From: Candidatus Hydrogenedentota bacterium
GTDB lineage: Bacteria > Hydrogenedentota > Hydrogenedentia > Hydrogenedentales > SLHB01
Assembly (NCBI GenBank): GCA_016215105.1
Contig: JACRLJ010000141.1
Location: 1 to 36,845, forward strand
Direction of reading: 5' to 3'
Length of the DNA stretch: 36,845 nt
The translations under genes were made by a program, and so were the position numbers. The notes below the pieces were generated by a model. It had not been told where the DNA came from, searched no databases, and worked only from the letters and a program-made list of their open reading frames with translations. Shown here one piece after another: positions 3,007-13,881 of the stretch (the stretch's first letter is position 1; each line of letters opens with the position of its first letter).

Positions 3007-3159
3007 CGTGCATTTGATGAGTCTCCCTCCGGATCCATGCGCGACGAGCGACGCCGCTGCTGCAATGCTTCGGCCTGCGGGTTCTTGTATCATGCCGCCA
3101 GTGGTGTCGCAGATGTACCCGTGTGTCCCGGAGCCTTTACCAGAAGAGGAACGTACTCG

Positions 3160-4875
3160 ATGACCAGTGACGCTCCGCGCGAAGCCGGGCCGCCTCAGAA
3201 TACTCGCGCGGAAAAGGAGTTTTTCGACCAGGCCGCGCGTGAGCAAGAGCATGGGTACTTCTCTGAGCGAGGTTGGCGGCGGTTGGCGCAACTGGCGCTC
3301 GATTTTGTCCCCGACAAGGAGAAGGTCCGTATTCTGGATCTCGGTTGCGGAACAGGGCGCCTGATCGCCGAGTTAGCGAAGGCATTACCGGGCGCCGATT
3401 TGTTCGGCGTGGATATTTCGGAACATTCAATCGAGTCCGCAAGCAAACGCGGCGTTGGGACGTTTCTGGTGGGGGACATCCTGGAGCTGGACCTCACTCA
3501 ACACTACGGCACGTTTGACCTTGTGATTCTCTCCTCCGTGCTGCACCATTTTGACGATTCGCGCGTGGTGGTTCGTTGCGCGAAGCGGCACATTGGCGCC
3601 AGCGGGCGAATCCTATCCTACGATCCCAATGACGTTAACCCCTTCTTCTTCCTGTACCGCTCTCCCGCCTCCCCGATATCATCCCGAAATGGACTGAGTC
3701 CCAACGAGCGTCTCATGTCCAGGCAGGAGCTAGAGCAAGCGTATGCGAGCGAGGGATTCGTGGCGGATTCCTTTGGCGCTTCCGGAATTAGTTTTGATTG
3801 GGTGCAGAGCGATACGGCGAAGTTCTTCCTGCCGGTGTTCAACTTCCTCGATCGATGGCTTTTTCAGGACACGCTTCTTGAAGAGCCCTATGGCTGTTTT
3901 CGCATCTGCGTGACGCGACCCGCCGAGCAGCAAGCCGCGCCCGCGTGTCTCGCGTGCCGTTCGTCGTCGGTGAAACGCCTATACTTTCTAATGCCTCGAA
4001 CGTTTTTCCGTTGTCTTGAATGCGGCACGCTATTTGCCCGGCCCCTCGCGAGTCTCAATTCGCGAAGCGCCGACTACCACTCGGCGTGGCACGCCACCTT
4101 ATATAGTCAGTACTACAGCCTTCTCAGGATCTCGCAGGCGCAAGCCATCTTGGATTGTTTGGACAAGAGCGCCGGGCATCCGCTCGATATCCTCGATGTG
4201 GGCTGCGGATACGGCTATTTTGTCTACGAAGCTCTTACGCGGGGCCACCGGGCGCGAGGGATTGATGTTTCTTTGCCGGAAGAAGTGTACCAATCACATC
4301 CGGAGGCGCTTAGCCGTCAGCCGTTGTCAGAGCTGATTCGGGATGGTGAACAATTCGATGTAGTCTGCCTGCTGACGGTTCTCGAGCACGTGCAGGAGCC
4401 GGAAGAACTCTTGGTGCAAGTCCGTGCTTTGCTTCGCGATGATGGCCAGCTCGTGCTTTCACTACCCTCCATCGAGCCTTGGTCGATCTATTGGCTGTTG
4501 CACCTTATCTTTCGTTCGTCGGGCGGCACGATTCGCTGGCCTTGGCGAACCCTGCTGCAATGGGGATCGCCCGCGCCGCACGTATTCATGCCCTCAAGAA
4601 AAGGGATGGAGTTGCTGGCAAAGCGCTGTATGGAATCGGAAACAGTCGCTTCATTTGGACAACCTATGACGCAGCCGGGGACCCTTGGGAAACGCGTAAG
4701 ACTGGAAGCCGAGCGGACCGGTTGCGGAACGCTCAAGCAGAGCTTGATGTACGTGGGCGGCCTGCTCGCGCATTGCTACGACCTGCTGACCATAAAGCTC
4801 GGGCGTCCGAACGAGATTGTCACATTCTTTAGGAAATCCGGGTCTCGGCGGCCGGAACGCGAAGAATCGCGATAG
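3160..4875 (+). CDS. Fused double class I SAM-methyltransferase with central zinc ribbon
   Basis: The 571-residue protein contains two Rossmann-type methyltransferases. The first (about 25-240) has motif I RILDLGCGTGRL and an acidic post-I loop FGVDIS. A short CxxC...CxxC segment follows (CLACRSS, then FRCLECGTLF), the zinc ribbon that usually precedes one class of small-molecule or sugar methyltransferases. The second catalytic domain (about 325-480) has motif I DILDVGCGYGYF and GIDVS, then VCLLTVLEHVQEP. Both SAM-binding glycines look intact, so both halves may be active. The C-terminal part has hydrophobic stretches (PWSIYWLLHLIF, LMYVGGLLAHCYDLL) suggesting membrane association. The chosen ATG follows AGAAGAGGAACG; an ATG at 3037 gives an implausible Cys-rich leader. 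The substrate is not evident; a lipid-linked or polysaccharide intermediate is a guess. Confidence 0.85.
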   Translation: MTSDAPREAGPPQNTRAEKEFFDQAAREQEHGYFSERGWRRLAQLALDFVPDKEKVRILDLGCGTGRLIAELAKALPGADLFGVDISEHSIESASKRGVGTFLVGDILELDLTQHYGTFDLVILSSVLHHFDDSRVVVRCAKRHIGASGRILSYDPNDVNPFFFLYRSPASPISSRNGLSPNERLMSRQELEQAYASEGFVADSFGASGISFDWVQSDTAKFFLPVFNFLDRWLFQDTLLEEPYGCFRICVTRPAEQQAAPACLACRSSSVKRLYFLMPRTFFRCLECGTLFARPLASLNSRSADYHSAWHATLYSQYYSLLRISQAQAILDCLDKSAGHPLDILDVGCGYGYFVYEALTRGHRARGIDVSLPEEVYQSHPEALSRQPLSELIRDGEQFDVVCLLTVLEHVQEPEELLVQVRALLRDDGQLVLSLPSIEPWSIYWLLHLIFRSSGGTIRWPWRTLLQWGSPAPHVFMPSRKGMELLAKRCMESETVASFGQPMTQPGTLGKRVRLEAERTGCGTLKQSLMYVGGLLAHCYDLLTIKLGRPNEIVTFFRKSGSRRPEREESR

Positions 4876-5051: not shown

Positions 5052-8000
5052 CTAATGCCGTTTCTTCAATCCGAGGGCTGCGTTGATTGCCAATTGAACG
5101 TCTACGGCGTTCACCTGGCCATCGCCGTCAATGTCGCCATTATATGGGCTAATATCGATGCTCAACGCCCCGTTTATCACGAGCTGAATATCCACGGCAT
5201 TCACGACGCCATCGTAATTTACGTCACCGAGCGTGAGCATATCGCTGACGGCGAAAATGGTGAAGTGTGTCGTGTCAAACGTTACGAAGTCGTTCGGGGA
5301 GCCCGCCGTGTGTGTCACATTGGTGATTCCCGTCCGCTCCCATTTGTTGGTATCGGTGTTGTAATACAGCACGGCCAGCGTATCGGGATGCGCTGTCGCG
5401 GTGGGGTGCGGGATTGTTACCGTTACGGGTTGGCTGAATACCAGGCCCTTTGGACCGAGGTGAATGATAATCCCAAAGGTCCGCGGCTTGGGCGTAGGCA
5501 GGTTGAGCGCGGGGCCGACCGCAATCACCGCCGGACTGGACATTGCCCCCGCCGGTATCGTAACGATGACACCGTTGGTGGCGGCGCCGCCTTCCGTTAC
5601 CTGAACCACGGCTCCGCTATCCGGTTGCACAAGTTCGGCATGGTCAATTGCTTCCTCGGTCACCGTGAAATACGCGTTCGCGGTTCGCGACTTGCTGGTG
5701 TTGGTCGTCACTGTTAGTTTGAACGTGCGGCTGCCCAGGGGGACGCCCGCCGCAAGCGGGTACAGGGGACTTTGCGTCGAGTTGTCGGTAATACCATCGC
5801 CGTTGTAGTCCCACGCGAACGTTACCGGACCTCCGTTCGGGTCGGAACCGTCTCCAGAGAGGTGCAACGTCATGGGCGAGGGACCCGCCAGCGGAACGAC
5901 AGTGGCGGATGCGGTGGGCAGGCCGGTTCCGACCGTAATGGCGACGGTTGTGCTGGCGGAGTTGCCGTTGTTATCCACTACCGTCAATGTGGCCACGTAC
6001 ACGCCGTCAGTGGTGTACGTGTAAGTTGGCGTGGCGCCGCTCAAGTCGAGTTGGATTCCGTTGATGTCGTCCACGTCCCACGAGTAGGATGCGATGCCCC
6101 ATTCGTCACTCGATCCGTTTGCGTCAAAACCTACCAGAAGCGGCGCGCTTCCTGACACGGGCGTGGTGGCGGTGGCGACCGCGCTGGGCGCCAGGGTGTC
6201 GTGGGTTCCAAACGGACCGCCGTCCGCGCCGAGGTCATTTCTCGTGCCGTTTAGGTCGTTGTACGCCGAACTCGGGTCGCCGGCGTTGCGGCACGGCGAG
6301 ATATCACGCAGGTGGAAATTGTCCACGCTCGCATCCACGAACAGAGGATCGACCGACAGATTCGTGGGATCGGAGGGTGGGCCGGAAAGATCCGTCGCAT
6401 TGTTGTCGAAATCGTTGTAGGATCCATCTGTCAGAGCGCCCGCATCAGCGAACACCGCGGCCGTGTTCGACGAGAAGATACAGTTCTTCAGTTCTGGGAA
6501 TGTCGCTCCGGCAAGGCCACTTACGCCGGTCAGGTTAAAATACACGGTGTTGTTGGTGAACGTCACTTGGCTGCCGGCGTTGGCCGTCAATCCGATACCG
6601 TTCCCACGCAGGACGCAGTTGGTGATATCAAGCTGTGTCGAGGCCGGCACAGACACGGCGCTGGACGTGCCCGCGGACCCGATCGTGAAGCCGCGAACGA
6701 TACACTTCGTGGCTGATGTCAGGACGATCTGGTTTAGGCCGCCGCCACTGATGATGGTGCGGAAAGCGCCGCTTTCGCCGATTAGCGCCGTATTCCGCTT
6801 GAGCGTAACGTGTTCGGTGTACGTTCCCGGTTTAACGAAAATCGTGTCGTTGCGTCCGGCGGCCGTCGCGGCGATGCCGGCCGTGAGCGTAACGAATGGA
6901 TTGCCCGCCGACCCGTCGCCGGGCCCAGCCGCTGCTCCATCCACATAAATCGTGTTTCCATCGCCGTCACGCGCGCCGGTAAACGCCGCGGAGTTTGCGG
7001 CAGTGTCGACAGGGTTGCCCATCAGATCGGCCGGCGCAGCGCTTACCAGGGCGGTGTACGCGGCGCCGTCGAGCATGCCGGATACAGTGACGTTGACATT
7101 CGTCGAGTCAACCCGCGCTACGGCGGATGCGGCAAGCGTGACACCGTCCGAGCCGCCCGTGAAGGTGTAGTTGGCGGCGTTGATCAGCGCCGCGTCGTTC
7201 TTCATGGCCTCATTGAACGTAACGCGCACCAGCGTGTCGCTGAGCACGGACGCGCTGAATACTTGCGGTTTCTGCCCTATGCCGGTGAATGCGGCCGAGT
7301 TCGAGGAGCCGCTGATAGTGTTTCCGGCCAGGTCCGTGGGACCTGCCGCCGACACTGTCACGGTATACGAAGCGCCTTGGAGCATTTCGCTGGTGGTCAA
7401 GTCCAAGGACGTGTCGTCTATGCGCGTGGCGCCGAGCACGGACACGGAGCCGCCGCCTATCGCGTAATTGCCCAGCGTGACCAGCGCCAGGTCGTTCGTC
7501 ATCGGTTCGCTGAACTCGACGCGCACGGTCGTCGGATCCTGTGCCGAGGCGGAGGCCACCTGCGGCGCCACACCAATGCCGCTGAAGGTAGCGGTATTGC
7601 CACCCACCGCCACGAAGTTGTCGGACAAATCGACTGGACCGGAAGTTGACACGGTCACGATATAGGACTGGCCCTGTTTCATCTCCTGGGTGGTGGTGAC
7701 GTCGTAGGTCGTCGTGTTGACCGCGCTCACGGAAGAGGCCGTCAATCCGTTGTTGAATGTGTAACTCGCCGGATCCGCTACGGCGTTGTTGGTAATATCG
7801 TTTCGCATCGCCACGCTATACACCACGCGGACCGTCGTCGAATTGGCCGCGGTTGCAGACGAAACCTGTGGCAGCGATCCGCCGAACCCTACAAAGCTTG
7901 CCGTGCGCGCCGTGGAATCCACTGTATTGCCAACGGCGTCGGTTATGCCGCTGGTGGCCACGGTCACCGTATACACCGTGCCCGCGCTCATCGAATTTGT

Positions 8001-11000
8001 CAGCACATCTACGGTGGTGGAATTCACGACCGACACCGACGACGCGCTCAATCCATTGTCAAAGGTGTAATTGGACGCTGTCGACAGCGCCGCGTTGTTG
8101 GCCATTGCCTCATTAAATGCGACCCGAACGTGCGTCGAAGACGTTACGGTCGCCGAAATGACCTGGGGCTTCTGGCCCATTCCCGAGAACACCGCCGTAT
8201 TGTTGATCGGCGACACCGTATTTGACGCCAAATCGGTAGGTCCGGACGTGGACACGGTTGCAGTATAAGTCTGGCCTTGCAGCATTTCGCTTACCGTTAC
8301 GTCAATGTTGGTAGCGTCGGCGCGCGTCACGGAGGTCACCGTCAAGCCGCCGGTGAAATTGTAGTTCGCGGGTGTCGTCAATGCCGGGCTGTTGAGCATG
8401 GCTTCGTCAAATGTAATACGGACGGTCGTGGAATTCTGAGCCGCCGCGGAAGCCACGTTTGGAGCTCGGCCCGCGCCGGTGAAGGCGGCGCTGTTTGCGG
8501 AGGTGGACACGGTGTTTCCGGCCAGGTCCGCCGGGCCCGAGGTCGAGACTGTTACGGTATAGCTCACGCCATTGGTCATCTCATTCACGGTGACTTCGAC
8601 GGTCGTCGAGTTCACAACACTTACCGACGTGGCGGTCAGTCCACCCGTGAAGGTGTAATTGCCGGCGACCGTTAGTGCAGCGTTATTCAGCATCGACTCA
8701 CTGAATACGACGTTTACCTTGGTCGAATCGGTCGCCGATGCGAAGGCGACCTGGGGACGAACGCCAATACCTGTGAAGACACCGGTATTGGCGCTGACGG
8801 ACATAAGATTGCCTGCAAGGTCCGCGGGACCTGCGGTTGAAACCGTCACCGTATAGCTTTGGTCCTGCTTCATTTCGCCCGTGGTAACATCCACGGTCGT
8901 GGCGTTGACACGAGTCACCGAAGATGCGCTCAGGCCGTTATTGAAGACGTAGTTGCCCGCGGCCGTCAATGCGGCGTTGTTCAGCATTCCCTCGTTGAAA
9001 ACGACGCGAACCGAGGTCGACGACGTTGCTGTCGCCGACGCGACCTGGGGTGCTGTGGCGTCCGTAGCGATCGTGTCGGAGGACGCTACGTCCGCGGCGT
9101 ACTGTAACTCGATTGGGATTGAGGCGCTACGATCTTGCGCCGCGCTTCCGGATTCCGATGTGTGAGTGACGATGAAATGGTTAGGCGTCTGCAGCGAGGC
9201 GCTGGTCGTTAGTTTGGTCACCACAAAGTACACACGGGGCGTCCCCTGGGCGACTTGGACATTCGCATCCAAGTGCGCGAAGGAGACCGTCTCGACACCG
9301 CCGGTCAGCGAAAGGGGGCTGGCTGTCGTGACGAGCGTATCGCTGACACCGTTGAACACGCCGTCGCCGTTGTCGCGGTAGACATACAGCTTGTCAATAA
9401 GGGCGTTTGCCTCTACTGAAGAAAGGGGAGTTCCCGGCGCTGATTCAAAGAGAAGCGCCAATGTGGCGAGTTCGAGGTCGCTGTCACCGGACCTCCCATC
9501 GTGCGTCGCGAGGATCTTCAGCACGCTCTCAGCGCTGCCCTCCGGAATGCTGCCGTCGGAGACGTTAGCTGTCGTTAACCTGAATTGGCCGCCTTGATTC
9601 TGCCACCAGGTGATTGTGTGGGCGCCGTGCGCGACGCCTAGGATATCGACCTTGCCGTTCAGGTCAATGTCACCAGCGAAGACACCGGTGGGGCCAGTGA
9701 AGGAAGCCGCGACGCTGTGGCGGGTCCAACTGGTTCCGGCTCCGGTCAGATTCTCGTACCACGAGACCTCATTGCCGGTTTCCGCGGTTCCGGTGACGTC
9801 CAAGTCGCCATCGTTGTCCATGTCTATCACGAAAACGGCGCATGCGCCGAGCGAGGAGGCGTCGATGACGTTCTTGGTCCATGTCGCTCCAATACCGTCG
9901 GCGTTGCGCCACCATGCGAGCTGATTAGCGGTCGACGCCGACCCCACGATGTCGAGTTCCCCATCGTGATCGATGTCGGCCGCTCGAACGGCGTTGGCGC
10001 CGGAGAACGCGGCGTCTACCGTACGAGTAGTCCAGGAATTCCCATCGCCTCCGCCAGCGTTGTCTCGCGGCGATCCGTCATTTTGCCACCAGGCAATCTT
10101 GTTGGCCGTCGCGCCCGCGGCGATGATGTCGATAGATCCATCTTGGTTGACGTCCGCCGCGACCACGCTGCTCGCGCCGCCAAACGATCCGTTTACGGTG
10201 TGCGCGGTCCAAGCGGAGCCGTTCCCCGCAGTGTTTTCAAACCATAGCACGGCGCCGGAGCCCGATGCGGCGCAAACGACGTCCGCGTCTCCATCCCTGT
10301 CAATATCCGCGATGAACACCGACGATGCCCCGGCGGCCGACGACGAAATCGTGTGCGATGTCCAGGTCGCGCCGGTACCGGCCGTATTCTCAAACCAGAG
10401 CACGGAATTGCCGCTACTGGCGGCGGCCACGATATCGGGATCGCCGTCACTGTCCACGTCGGACACAGCCGCCGAAGCGGCGCCGCTCGCCGCGCCGACA
10501 ATGCGTTTCGTCCAGGAATTGCCGTCGCCCCCGAGGTCATCACTGGGAGTTCCGTCGTTTTGCCACCACGCGACGGCATTGCCTTCCGCCGCGACTCCGA
10601 CGATATCCTGGAAGCCATCCCGGTTCACGTCCGCCAGTACGGCCGCGCGGGCGCCTGTGAATGAGGCGTCCACGGTGTGCGCTGTCGGATGCGTCGCGGC
10701 TCCGTGGATGGTGTTGTTGCGGAACCAACTGACACGGTTGCCGCCGGCCGCAAAGCCTACCGCGGTCACGTCCGGGTCACCGTCACCGTCGACATCACCT
10801 ACATAGGAAGTATAGGCGTCGTTGAAACTGGATGAGATGACATGTTTGGTCAGTGAACTGCCGTCGCCCGTGGTGTTTTCCCACCAAGCCACGGTATTGG
10901 CGGTGCGCGCCGTCGCCACGATATCCATCGTGCCGTCTCTATTCAGGTCAACGGCGCGAATCGACGCGGCGCCGGTAAACGATGTGTCAATGGTGTGCTC

Positions 11001-11909
11001 GGTCCAGGCCAACCCGTCGCCGGACGCATTGGTGTTCTCGAACCACGAGATCGTGTTTGTGCCTTTGGATGCGCCCAGGACGTCGAGATGTCCGTCACCA
11101 TCGATGTCCGCCGCAAACACGCCTTCGGCGCTTGTGAAGCCGGTCTTGATCGAATGCTTGGTCCAGGAGGCGCCGTGGTTGACGTTTTGCCACCAGGCAA
11201 TCTCGTTCGCGGTGTCCCCTGCGCCGACGATATCCAATTGCCCATCACCATTCACGTCGGCGAGGTGAAGCGCGAAGGGATTTCCGAATGTGTTGTCCAC
11301 AGTATGGCGGGTCCACGTGCTACCGTCGCCTGAAGTGCTTTCCCACCAGTAGATGGTATTGGCGAGGAACGCAGTCCCCGCGATATCGACACGGCCATCT
11401 CCATTGATGTCTCCTGCCACGACGACGTTGGGAAGAGAAACCGTTGCATCAACATCGTGCAGGGTCCAGGAATTACCGTCGCCACCCAAGTTGTCGCGAG
11501 GCGTGCCGTCGTTCTGGAACCACACCACACGGTGAGACGCTCCGTTGAGTGACGTCGCAATAACGTCGGGGTACCCATCGCCGTTTACATCCGCGACAAA
11601 AACACTGCTGGCGTTGGAGAACGATGTCGCGATGGTATGACTAACCCAGGTAGACCCGTCGCCGTTGGTATTCTCCCACCATTTGATCGAGCCCGAGAGC
11701 CCCGTACCCACGGCGTCGAGATCTCCGTCACCGTCGATATCCGCCAAGACGGCGGAATTGGCGCTGCTGAAAGACGGTTCGATATCGCTGGCGGCGCCGA
11801 ACGGTATTTCAACCGCATAGGCGGACGATGCGGCGAAAAGCGCCGCGATTGCGACTATACCTCTGGCCGCGAATCCACAGATTTGGCCGTACCGAGTGTG
11901 CTTGTTCAA
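5052..11909 (-). CDS. Giant exported FG-GAP / Ig-like / beta-helix / PKD / dockerin protein
   Basis: A 2285-residue secreted protein. The start is taken as TTG at 11909, seven bases after GGAG, giving a clean signal peptide (basic start, GIVAIAALFAASS, AYA cleavage site near residue 32). Domains in order: 14 FG-GAP/VCBS-type propeller repeats (about 40-770) each with a DxDGDGxxD loop and a WWENT or WWQND strand; an unassigned beta-rich segment (about 775-945); seven Ig-like (SbsA/Big-5-like) repeats (about 947-1645); a right-handed beta-helix (about 1650-1890) with DTIFVKPGTYTE; two PKD domains (about 1910-2070); a ZU5-like domain (about 2090-2205); and a type I dockerin (last 60 residues) with GDVNYDGVVNAVD and GDIDGDGQVNAVD loops, ending KKRH. 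No catalytic residues are recognised. It is probably a surface or matrix adhesin or scaffold-bound binding protein. Transcribed alone, convergent with the methyltransferase gene. Confidence 0.92.
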   Translation of the reverse strand: MNKHTRYGQICGFAARGIVAIAALFAASSAYAVEIPFGAASDIEPSFSSANSAVLADIDGDGDLDAVGTGLSGSIKWWENTNGDGSTWVSHTIATSFSNASSVFVADVNGDGYPDVIATSLNGASHRVVWFQNDGTPRDNLGGDGNSWTLHDVDATVSLPNVVVAGDINGDGRVDIAGTAFLANTIYWWESTSGDGSTWTRHTVDNTFGNPFALHLADVNGDGQLDIVGAGDTANEIAWWQNVNHGASWTKHSIKTGFTSAEGVFAADIDGDGHLDVLGASKGTNTISWFENTNASGDGLAWTEHTIDTSFTGAASIRAVDLNRDGTMDIVATARTANTVAWWENTTGDGSSLTKHVISSSFNDAYTSYVGDVDGDGDPDVTAVGFAAGGNRVSWFRNNTIHGAATHPTAHTVDASFTGARAAVLADVNRDGFQDIVGVAAEGNAVAWWQNDGTPSDDLGGDGNSWTKRIVGAASGAASAAVSDVDSDGDPDIVAAASSGNSVLWFENTAGTGATWTSHTISSSAAGASSVFIADIDRDGDADVVCAASGSGAVLWFENTAGNGSAWTAHTVNGSFGGASSVVAADVNQDGSIDIIAAGATANKIAWWQNDGSPRDNAGGGDGNSWTTRTVDAAFSGANAVRAADIDHDGELDIVGSASTANQLAWWRNADGIGATWTKNVIDASSLGACAVFVIDMDNDGDLDVTGTAETGNEVSWYENLTGAGTSWTRHSVAASFTGPTGVFAGDIDLNGKVDILGVAHGAHTITWWQNQGGQFRLTTANVSDGSIPEGSAESVLKILATHDGRSGDSDLELATLALLFESAPGTPLSSVEANALIDKLYVYRDNGDGVFNGVSDTLVTTASPLSLTGGVETVSFAHLDANVQVAQGTPRVYFVVTKLTTSASLQTPNHFIVTHTSESGSAAQDRSASIPIELQYAADVASSDTIATDATAPQVASATATSSTSVRVVFNEGMLNNAALTAAGNYVFNNGLSASSVTRVNATTVDVTTGEMKQDQSYTVTVSTAGPADLAGNLMSVSANTGVFTGIGVRPQVAFASATDSTKVNVVFSESMLNNAALTVAGNYTFTGGLTATSVSVVNSTTVEVTVNEMTNGVSYTVTVSTSGPADLAGNTVSTSANSAAFTGAGRAPNVASAAAQNSTTVRITFDEAMLNSPALTTPANYNFTGGLTVTSVTRADATNIDVTVSEMLQGQTYTATVSTSGPTDLASNTVSPINNTAVFSGMGQKPQVISATVTSSTHVRVAFNEAMANNAALSTASNYTFDNGLSASSVSVVNSTTVDVLTNSMSAGTVYTVTVATSGITDAVGNTVDSTARTASFVGFGGSLPQVSSATAANSTTVRVVYSVAMRNDITNNAVADPASYTFNNGLTASSVSAVNTTTYDVTTTQEMKQGQSYIVTVSTSGPVDLSDNFVAVGGNTATFSGIGVAPQVASASAQDPTTVRVEFSEPMTNDLALVTLGNYAIGGGSVSVLGATRIDDTSLDLTTSEMLQGASYTVTVSAAGPTDLAGNTISGSSNSAAFTGIGQKPQVFSASVLSDTLVRVTFNEAMKNDAALINAANYTFTGGSDGVTLAASAVARVDSTNVNVTVSGMLDGAAYTALVSAAPADLMGNPVDTAANSAAFTGARDGDGNTIYVDGAAAGPGDGSAGNPFVTLTAGIAATAAGRNDTIFVKPGTYTEHVTLKRNTALIGESGAFRTIISGGGLNQIVLTSATKCIVRGFTIGSAGTSSAVSVPASTQLDITNCVLRGNGIGLTANAGSQVTFTNNTVYFNLTGVSGLAGATFPELKNCIFSSNTAAVFADAGALTDGSYNDFDNNATDLSGPPSDPTNLSVDPLFVDASVDNFHLRDISPCRNAGDPSSAYNDLNGTRNDLGADGGPFGTHDTLAPSAVATATTPVSGSAPLLVGFDANGSSDEWGIASYSWDVDDINGIQLDLSGATPTYTYTTDGVYVATLTVVDNNGNSASTTVAITVGTGLPTASATVVPLAGPSPMTLHLSGDGSDPNGGPVTFAWDYNGDGITDNSTQSPLYPLAAGVPLGSRTFKLTVTTNTSKSRTANAYFTVTEEAIDHAELVQPDSGAVVQVTEGGAATNGVIVTIPAGAMSSPAVIAVGPALNLPTPKPRTFGIIIHLGPKGLVFSQPVTVTIPHPTATAHPDTLAVLYYNTDTNKWERTGITNVTHTAGSPNDFVTFDTTHFTIFAVSDMLTLGDVNYDGVVNAVDIQLVINGALSIDISPYNGDIDGDGQVNAVDVQLAINAALGLKKRH
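6975..9070 (-). repeat. Seven tandem Ig-like (SbsA/Big-5-like) repeats inside the giant protein
   Basis: Seven units of about 100 codons follow the scheme PQVxSAxAxxSTxVRVxFxEAM, NYTFxxGL, TxVDVTxxEM, YTVTVSTSGPxDLAGN, FTGxG. Unit-to-unit identity is high, which suggests recent internal duplication. In known S-layer and cell-wall proteins such domains act as spacer stalks, which fits a position between the propellers and the beta-helix. Boundaries are approximate. Confidence 0.85.
9590..11790 (-). repeat. 14 tandem FG-GAP/VCBS-type repeats inside the giant protein
   Basis: Fourteen coding repeats of about 50-60 codons, each with an acidic calcium-binding loop (D-x-D/N-x-D-G type), a hydrophobic strand and an aromatic WW or WF strand before a T-W-T-x-H-T/S-V/I segment. 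Fourteen copies suit two seven-bladed beta-propellers. Repeats 2, 8 and 11 carry an extra GDGNSW insert, suggesting duplication of larger blocks. Boundaries are approximate. Confidence 0.88.
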
Positions 11910-12186: not shown

Positions 12187-13881
12187 GTGACTCGGCTTTC
12201 CGGAGAAGATATTGCTCACTTGCTCCTCCAGTTGGGGGCCATGCTGGCCCTGGCGCGGGCGCTCGGAGAAGCAGCGAAACGCTTGGGGCAGCCGTCGCTT
12301 TTGGGCGAAATGCTGGCGGGCGTGCTGCTCGGGCCATCCGTGCTGGGGCACCTGAGTCCGGACTTCGCCGCGTTTCTGGTTCCGTCCGAAGGGGGCGCCG
12401 CGTGGTTTACCAACGGTTTCTCGTCCCTCGCCGCGGTACTATTCATGTTGGTTGCAGGGATGGACGTGGACTTGTCGAGCGCGTGCCGGCAAGGCCGCTC
12501 CGTCGTCATTGTCAGCGCTTTGGGCATCGCGGTTCCATTCGGGCTTGGATTCATATGCGTCTGGGCGCTGCCGTCGTGGTTCGGAAAAGCCCCCGATGCC
12601 GATACCTTGATTTATGCTCTGTTCTTTGCGACCGCGCTATCCATTTCCGCGTTACCCGTCATCGCCAAGACCCTGATCGACCTGGGTATGTACCGCAGTG
12701 ATTTTGGAATGCTCATCGTGGCGGCCGCCGTCGTGGACGATTTGGTTGGCTGGATAGTCTTCGCGATGGTCTTGGGGATGATGGGCGCCCAACACGTAAG
12801 CGGGTTCTCTGTGCCGGTGACGATTGCTCTGACGCTTGCGTTTGCCGGTGGAATGCTTACGGCTGGCCGCTGGCTGATTCATCGTGTGTTGAGGTGGACT
12901 CAAGCGCATACCACGTGGCCCGCGGGGGTGTTGAGTCTTTCGGTCTCGCTGGCGCTGTTTGGCGCCGCATTCACGGAGTGGATTGGCATCCATGCCGTGT
13001 TTGGCTCGTTCATGGCCGGGGTGGCCCTGGGTGACTCGACCCACCTGCGGAAACGCTCCCGCGAGACCCTGGATCAGTTTATATCGTTCATCTTTGCGCC
13101 CTTGTTTTTCGCGAGCATCGGGTTGCGCGTCGACTTTGCGGAGAATTTTGATCCCGCGCTTACGGCAATGGTCGTGGCGCTGGGTTGTTTCACCAAGGTG
13201 ATCGGATGCGGGGCGGGCGCGCGCTTGTGCGGTATGTCTCTGCGCGAATCGGCGGCAGTCGGATTCGGCATGAACGCGCGCGGCGCGATGCAGATTATTC
13301 TGGGGCTCCTGGCCCTGCAATACGGCGTGATCGGGGATCGTATGTTCGTGACCATTGTCATCATGGCCTTGGTCACTACTGTCATGGCCGGACCAGCCAT
13401 CCAGCTTCTACTCCAGCGGCGAAAACGCCGTCCCATGACGGATTACCTCTCGGCGGATACGTTTATCGAGGCGCTTGGCGGGCATACGCGTCACGAGGTG
13501 GTACGGGAACTGGCTGAAGCCGTCGCCCGATCCGCCAAGCTCGATCCGGCGTCTGTCGAGGGGGCGGCGTGGGAACGGGAGAAACTGATGCCGGCCGGAA
13601 TCGGCATGGGGGTAGCAGTTCCGCAAGGGCGAGTCGCCGGCCTTGACGCGCCACTCATCGGTGTCGGGCTCTCACGGAGCGGTGTCGATTTCGACGCGCC
13701 AGATGGCCAGCCGGCCGATCTCATTTTCCTGGTGGTCACGCCCGAAGACGACGATGGAACGCAGCCCGCGATACTGGCGGACATCTCGAAGTTGGCGGGT
13801 GACCCGGAGATTCGTGAAAGCATCCACTCGGGGCCAGGCTTTGGCGAATTCCGCGGCCTGCTGCGGTCACACGGCTATTGA
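12187..13881 (+). CDS. CPA2-family cation/proton antiporter with degenerate PTS EIIA-like C-terminal domain
   Basis: An inner-membrane monovalent cation/H+ antiporter of 564 residues. Residues about 10-400 hold a dozen or so hydrophobic segments of the Na_H_Exchanger (KefB/NapA-like) fold, including the TM5 Asp pair D184-D185 (AVVDDLVGW), the LPVIAKTL segment, and GFGMNARGAMQIIL near the last helices. Residues about 420-564 form a PTS fructose/mannitol-type EIIA fold in place of the TrkA-N domain of KefB. In active EIIA the phosphorylated His sits in a G-x-A-x-P-H loop; here the loop is GVAVPQG with Gln480, so the domain should not carry phosphate and is probably a regulatory module. The start is GTG at 12187 with no strong ribosome site; no in-frame alternative looks better. 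Ion specificity cannot be told. Confidence 0.9.
   Translation: MTRLSGEDIAHLLLQLGAMLALARALGEAAKRLGQPSLLGEMLAGVLLGPSVLGHLSPDFAAFLVPSEGGAAWFTNGFSSLAAVLFMLVAGMDVDLSSACRQGRSVVIVSALGIAVPFGLGFICVWALPSWFGKAPDADTLIYALFFATALSISALPVIAKTLIDLGMYRSDFGMLIVAAAVVDDLVGWIVFAMVLGMMGAQHVSGFSVPVTIALTLAFAGGMLTAGRWLIHRVLRWTQAHTTWPAGVLSLSVSLALFGAAFTEWIGIHAVFGSFMAGVALGDSTHLRKRSRETLDQFISFIFAPLFFASIGLRVDFAENFDPALTAMVVALGCFTKVIGCGAGARLCGMSLRESAAVGFGMNARGAMQIILGLLALQYGVIGDRMFVTIVIMALVTTVMAGPAIQLLLQRRKRRPMTDYLSADTFIEALGGHTRHEVVRELAEAVARSAKLDPASVEGAAWEREKLMPAGIGMGVAVPQGRVAGLDAPLIGVGLSRSGVDFDAPDGQPADLIFLVVTPEDDDGTQPAILADISKLAGDPEIRESIHSGPGFGEFRGLLRSHGY

Follow-up and report, generated by a model that had tools for sequence, protein, structure and literature searches.

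The window (the whole stretch of DNA analysed here, 36,845 nucleotides of a Candidatus Hydrogenedentota genome) carries on its minus strand the gene for an exported protein that is a mosaic of many domains and ends in a dockerin. Its features, from the N-terminus of the product to the C-terminus, are these:

5052..11909, minus strand: gene for the 2285-aa exported mosaic protein, with a TTG start at 11909 and the stop at 5052-5054
11814..11909, minus strand: signal peptide read from the sequence, LNKHTRYGQICGFAARGIVAIAALFAASSAYA before and VE after the putative cleavage site
9570..11792, minus strand: about 14 FG-GAP repeats (PF13517, 1.5e-83, 13 stretches; motif count)
6975..9077, minus strand: seven Ig-like repeats of about 100 aa (Big_12/Big_5-type), from repeat spacing and weak Big_12; limits approximate
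6195..6965, minus strand: right-handed beta-helix (NosD-like), from NosD-type homology; limits approximate
5685..6179, minus strand: two PKD domains, the first strong, the second degenerate and seen by eye (PF18911, PKD_4, 4.9e-12; PF00801, 2.4e-6)
5265..5672, minus strand: ZU5-like domain (PF00791, 18.9 bits, cut-off 21 bits); limits approximate
5067..5234, minus strand: type I dockerin of two calcium-loop/helix repeats (PF00404, lineage profile, model, Foldseek)
5055..5066, minus strand: KKRH, the four residues beyond the last dockerin helix, no common motif to judge from paralogue tails

A Shine-Dalgarno-like GGGAG run lies upstream of the start, and the signal peptide and the minus-strand frame bear out the 2285-residue secreted protein of the initial annotation, which had given no strand; the mature protein is acidic, with a pI of about 4.2. 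The order of domains proposed there (14 FG-GAP repeats, seven Ig-like repeats, a beta-helix, two PKD domains, a ZU5-like domain and a dockerin) is confirmed by Pfam, NosD homology and motif count. By motif count there are 13 FG-GAP cores, which a degenerate first copy seen by eye brings to about 14, and these are likely to form two seven-bladed beta-propellers. A linker domain lies between them and the Ig-like repeats, which are visible in the sequence and yield a weak Big_12 match and nothing else in Pfam. The beta-helix has a homologous module in G002, G025, G027, G035, G038, G043 and G057, one PKD domain is clear from its PKD_4 match, and the label ‘ZU5-like’ is apt because the score falls below the ZU5 cut-off. 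The mosaic order had been called unusual, but such mosaics are ordinary in proteins of that sort, and the main interest lies instead in the genome-wide dockerin set, in a scaffold within an exosortase/exopolysaccharide (EPS) locus and in the exchange of dockerin and anchor. The neighbouring genes in the window (kinase, methyltransferase, Na/H exchanger, rhamnosidase) have no evident link to the mosaic gene. In their own right, the frame at 12187-13878 fuses a Na+/H+ exchanger to a PTS EIIA-2 domain, the one at 3037-4872 holds two methyltransferase domains, and a histidine kinase of the window gave no match in a search against viral contigs.

The C-terminal domain is a genuine type I dockerin in sequence and in fold. 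It matches Dockerin_1 (PF00404) at 36.5 bits (5.5e-9), against a curated cut-off of 22.9 bits, and scores 90.8 bits against a lineage profile built from its paralogues, of which the window copy is itself one row. Both calcium-loop repeats are unmistakable in the profile search. Structure prediction upholds the call as well: the AlphaFold model (pLDDT 91.4) consists of two loop-helix units, with helices at 17-27 and 47-58, and its best Foldseek matches in the PDB are dockerins (6kgf, 3ul4 and 1ohz, TM about 0.7), headed by CaDoc0917 of Clostridium acetobutylicum, with clostridial dockerins as the nearest folds. The shortness of the domain keeps individual Foldseek E-values modest (1.2e-3).

This dockerin is one of many. 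By the lineage profile the genome (6.68 Mb, 95% complete) holds 49 strong dockerins of one close-knit type, about 48 having come from the first profile search, and 39 of them sit within 2-12 residues of the stop, while the remaining 10 lie near the N-terminus, most directly behind the signal peptide, or internally. In the 38 aligned C-terminal copies the calcium ligands D1, N/D3, D5 and D12 are conserved in both repeats, and A10, Q14 and N18, none of them a calcium ligand, scarcely vary in either repeat (Q14 is present in 38 of 38 in each), as would be expected if one partner were common to all the dockerins. By analogy with clostridial dockerins, positions 10-11 and 17-18 or thereabouts presumably face the cohesin. 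The two repeats are on average 64% identical to each other, in which they resemble dockerins with dual binding. Two exported carriers, L060:5890-10185 and L071:3358-6237, combine an N-terminal dockerin with FGE-sulfatase-type domains, one of them with four.

There is no cohesin in the window, and the initial annotation had suggested looking for one elsewhere in the genome. Exactly one protein with cohesins was found, on contig C71, where it opens an exosortase/EPS locus:

L034:7285-10353, minus strand: three-cohesin scaffold of 1022 aa, with cohesins, IPT/TIG and Ig-like domains and a signal peptide
Locus order in G000: scaffold, sigma-54 regulator, Wza, Wzc, acyltransferase, WecG, PrsT-like TPR protein, exosortase, EpsI

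With several cohesins in one exported, non-catalytic protein, this has the make-up of a cohesin scaffoldin; the model of its second cohesin has a pLDDT of 95, and its top matches are solved cohesins, including 5nrm and 2xdh. The names Wza, Wzc, acyltransferase and WecG come from reading the sequences rather than from a profile, and the order of the first six genes, from scaffold through WecG, is kept in L179, a contig labelled Candidatus Hydrogenedentota. No membrane anchor, TM segment or CTERM is evident in the scaffold. Between its first two cohesins (aa 562-611) lies a divergent dockerin-like segment (14.6 bits), kept in orthologues (GDVDGDG...PVLG..DAALILK) and giving no match to the lineage dockerin profile; together with the EPS locus it offers hints only as to surface anchoring. 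A cohesin-free genome is ruled out by this scaffold. Indeed, since the genome has both a cohesin scaffold and 49 dockerins of the same type, neither of the two findings that might have spoken against a dockerin-attached protein, a lack of calcium loops or a genome with no cohesin and no shared C-terminal motif, was made, and the idea of a calcium-dependent surface or matrix protein, attached by its C-terminal dockerin, gains support as a prediction from sequence.

What the dockerins carry is mostly concerned with binding or structure. Pfam finds Kelch, NHL and other propellers, CarboxypepD_reg, TSP3, PKD, Big_12, VWA and beta-helix domains, besides the two FGE-sulfatase-type proteins and a handful of peptidases (three trypsin-like, one M4 and one M6). 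No clear catalytic glycoside hydrolase with a dockerin turned up among the proteins scanned by Pfam, the nearest being a GH20 non-catalytic domain and a partial PcRGLX match, which tells against a cellulosome as usually understood, and on carrier content we rule one out. The scaffold itself has no CBM match at E<=0.1.

We favour, as reasonably probable, the view that the dockerins form a non-cellulosomal code by which exported proteins are kept on the C71 scaffold, itself associated with the matrix. The dockerin, the scaffold, the set of paralogues, the locus, the co-occurrence and the exchange of tails are shown here, whereas binding, surface location and the attachment of scaffold to matrix are what we infer. 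The signal peptide would take the window protein out of the cell, and the C-terminal dockerin would keep it on the outside by plugging, with calcium, into a cohesin socket; the sockets would be the three cohesins of the scaffold, the only ones found in the genome, and the scaffold itself would be lodged within the exopolysaccharide layer or on its surface. There it would gather a changing set of the roughly 49 tagged proteins, among them propellers, PKD, TSP3, CarboxypepD_reg and VWA proteins and peptidases. Against this reading stand the three sockets for some 49 plugs and the lack of an evident anchor on the scaffold.

Relatives allow this reading to be weighed. Cohesins occur in 51 of 60 related genomes and dockerins in 46, and orthologues of the scaffold, some cut by contig ends, are present in G001, G002, G005, G009, G012, G017, G019, G022 and G023, all of the same family. 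With the scaffold, dockerin counts are 44 in G000 and 5, 15, 24, 51, 7, 11, 8, 15 and 2 in these nine; without it, they are 0-8 in 15 genomes of the family, so that dockerin proteins occur in scaffold-free genomes too. The medians are 13 and 2 (Mann-Whitney p = 2e-4, a statistic that ignores kinship). Because the RpoB tree has a weak backbone, with four changes of scaffold label, the relatedness of the species is still contained in this co-occurrence; the tree is compatible with a single origin of the scaffold without establishing one.

Common in the order, too, is a membrane-anchored single-cohesin protein (signal peptide, cohesin, Pro/acidic linker, TM segment and LRKRLF tail), which as family A1 or something similar is found in 49 of the 60 relatives at E<=1e-3, in many at E<1e-50. 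Conceivably the window dockerin binds such a protein, here lost to an assembly gap or diverged, and the C71 scaffold has other clients. We regard this as unlikely, albeit the most serious of the alternatives: the same dockerin consensus is found where that cohesin is the only one, a gap is conceivable in a genome 95% complete, and a conserved dockerin-bearing protein of many relatives across the order, whose orthologue here is a thermolysin-like (M4) peptidase, is the likely client of the membrane cohesin. However, the window genome gives no match to it even at E<=10, and dockerins stay few in the scaffold-free genomes, most of which have the membrane cohesin, and rise with the scaffold. Elsewhere in the order there are clusters of several short single-cohesin genes (G038:C87, G034:C33, G053:C634, G055:C60 and G043:C113), in some cases with a dockerin gene nearby, which are possibly a different cohesin system. 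The short single-cohesin proteins L086, L091, L094, L098 and L105 (from G057, G036, G046, G029 and G041) share a conserved C-terminal block of the type HSSDYxxPxWxIxLYElLRLIQxYNxGxYHxxxGxEDGF, which looks like a separate domain.

That the dockerin stands in for an anchor is hinted at most directly by the exchange of tails on one and the same body. This body, the beta-helix/PKD/ZU5 part of the window protein, was compared across nine genomes, its homologues being 34-47% identical to it. It ends in a dockerin in G000 (the genome of the window), G002 and G019, all of them scaffold-bearing and the only kind of genome with that ending; in a CFI-box-CTERM in the scaffold-free G038 and G043 (NCBIfam, 1.6e-23 and 2.5e-24); in a different membrane tail in G027 and G035; and in HAF-like repeats in G010 and G025. 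On the scaffold reading, the dockerin would do here the job that CFI-box-CTERM and other membrane tails do in scaffold-free relatives. The same exchange, the presence of an exosortase locus and the extreme C-terminal position of 39 of the 49 dockerins could also suit a sorting signal that some secretion or anchoring apparatus recognises, with no cohesin involved, which we think improbable. A CTERM-like signal would always be at the extreme C-terminus, and a C-terminal signal would not tolerate the N-terminal or internal position of the other 10 copies; moreover, the calcium ligands and both repeats are conserved, and cohesins are widespread among the relatives. Still less probable is that the dockerin does no more than stiffen the end of the protein with calcium and has no partner: common as other calcium-binding repeats (FG-GAP, TSP3) are in such proteins, the 38 paralogues hardly differ at residues outside the calcium loops, and a cohesin scaffold co-occurs. 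Finally, KKRH is the real C-terminus of the window protein, and a few basic residues follow the last helix in about 13 of 38 paralogues (any K or R counted) and many relatives end in Arg, but the other 37 C-terminal paralogues in the alignment all lack the tail, most of them stopping at AALGL or 1-2, at any rate few, residues beyond, and a basic helix end is ordinary, so that a common signal is ruled out and the lineage-specific sorting or anchoring signal suggested by the initial annotation is hardly credible: of the shared dockerin and basic tail that it had proposed to look for, the genome repeats the dockerin and not the tail.

Systems of this kind are already known, in that related proposals exist for Planctomycetes, Cloacimonadota and methanotrophic archaea (for the last, PMC9012536). 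Among the papers searched, none was found to deal with the dockerins of Hydrogenedentota; two contain both words, in neither case in the title or the abstract. Non-cellulosomal cohesin–dockerin systems (Peer et al. 2009, PMC3035643, as cited in PMC9012536) are, so far as they are outlined there, like ours in that type I-like dockerins and cohesins occur apart from any cellulose breakdown, on carriers of varied domain content, and unlike it in that here there is a multi-cohesin scaffold, its gene at the head of an exosortase/EPS locus, together with a large, uniform set of dockerins. The planctosome of freshwater Planctomycetes, a peptidase-linked cohesin–dockerin assembly proposed for an uncultured environmental lineage (PMC6461901), is similar in that a few peptidases bear dockerins here too, but its model has single cohesins on a lamin-tail anchor plus an adaptor, whereas we find a three-cohesin scaffold, mostly non-enzymatic carriers and an EPS locus. 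Ca. Stygibacter of the Cloacimonadota has a cellulosome-like complex whose scaffoldin bears several cohesins (PMC8542988) and shares with the present case a multi-cohesin scaffoldin and C-terminal dockerins on secreted proteins; that scaffoldin, however, has CBMs and a C-terminal attachment domain, with GH and peptidase clients, while the present scaffold gave no CBM match and dockerins sit on few enzymes. The clostridial cellulosome offers the same dockerin and cohesin folds, and differs in the dockerin-bearing catalytic glycoside hydrolases and the scaffold CBM that are absent, or not clear, among the proteins scanned here. With the CFI-box-CTERM and exosortase-linked sorting tails the dockerin has in common its C-terminal place on the same body in relatives, but those tails are membrane-embedded and the dockerin is a soluble, calcium-binding plug. 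What looks new here is that the scaffold belongs to an exosortase/EPS locus and that dockerins trade places with CTERM tails.

To our knowledge, non-cellulosomal dockerins occur in many lineages and their job is mostly unexplained. In Hydrogenedentota, we would tentatively entertain, as a possibility, that the three-cohesin scaffold of the exosortase/EPS locus serves specifically as a hub for docking to the matrix, and that the dockerin is an interchangeable anchor which replaces membrane CTERM tails across the whole exported proteome; if true, this would be a cohesin–dockerin counterpart of surface display of the sortase or exosortase type. A large, uniform dockerin set, a single scaffold, an EPS/exosortase locus and the trade of tails together yield a testable claim, namely that non-cellulosomal dockerins are able to provide surface and matrix proteins with a general means of display.
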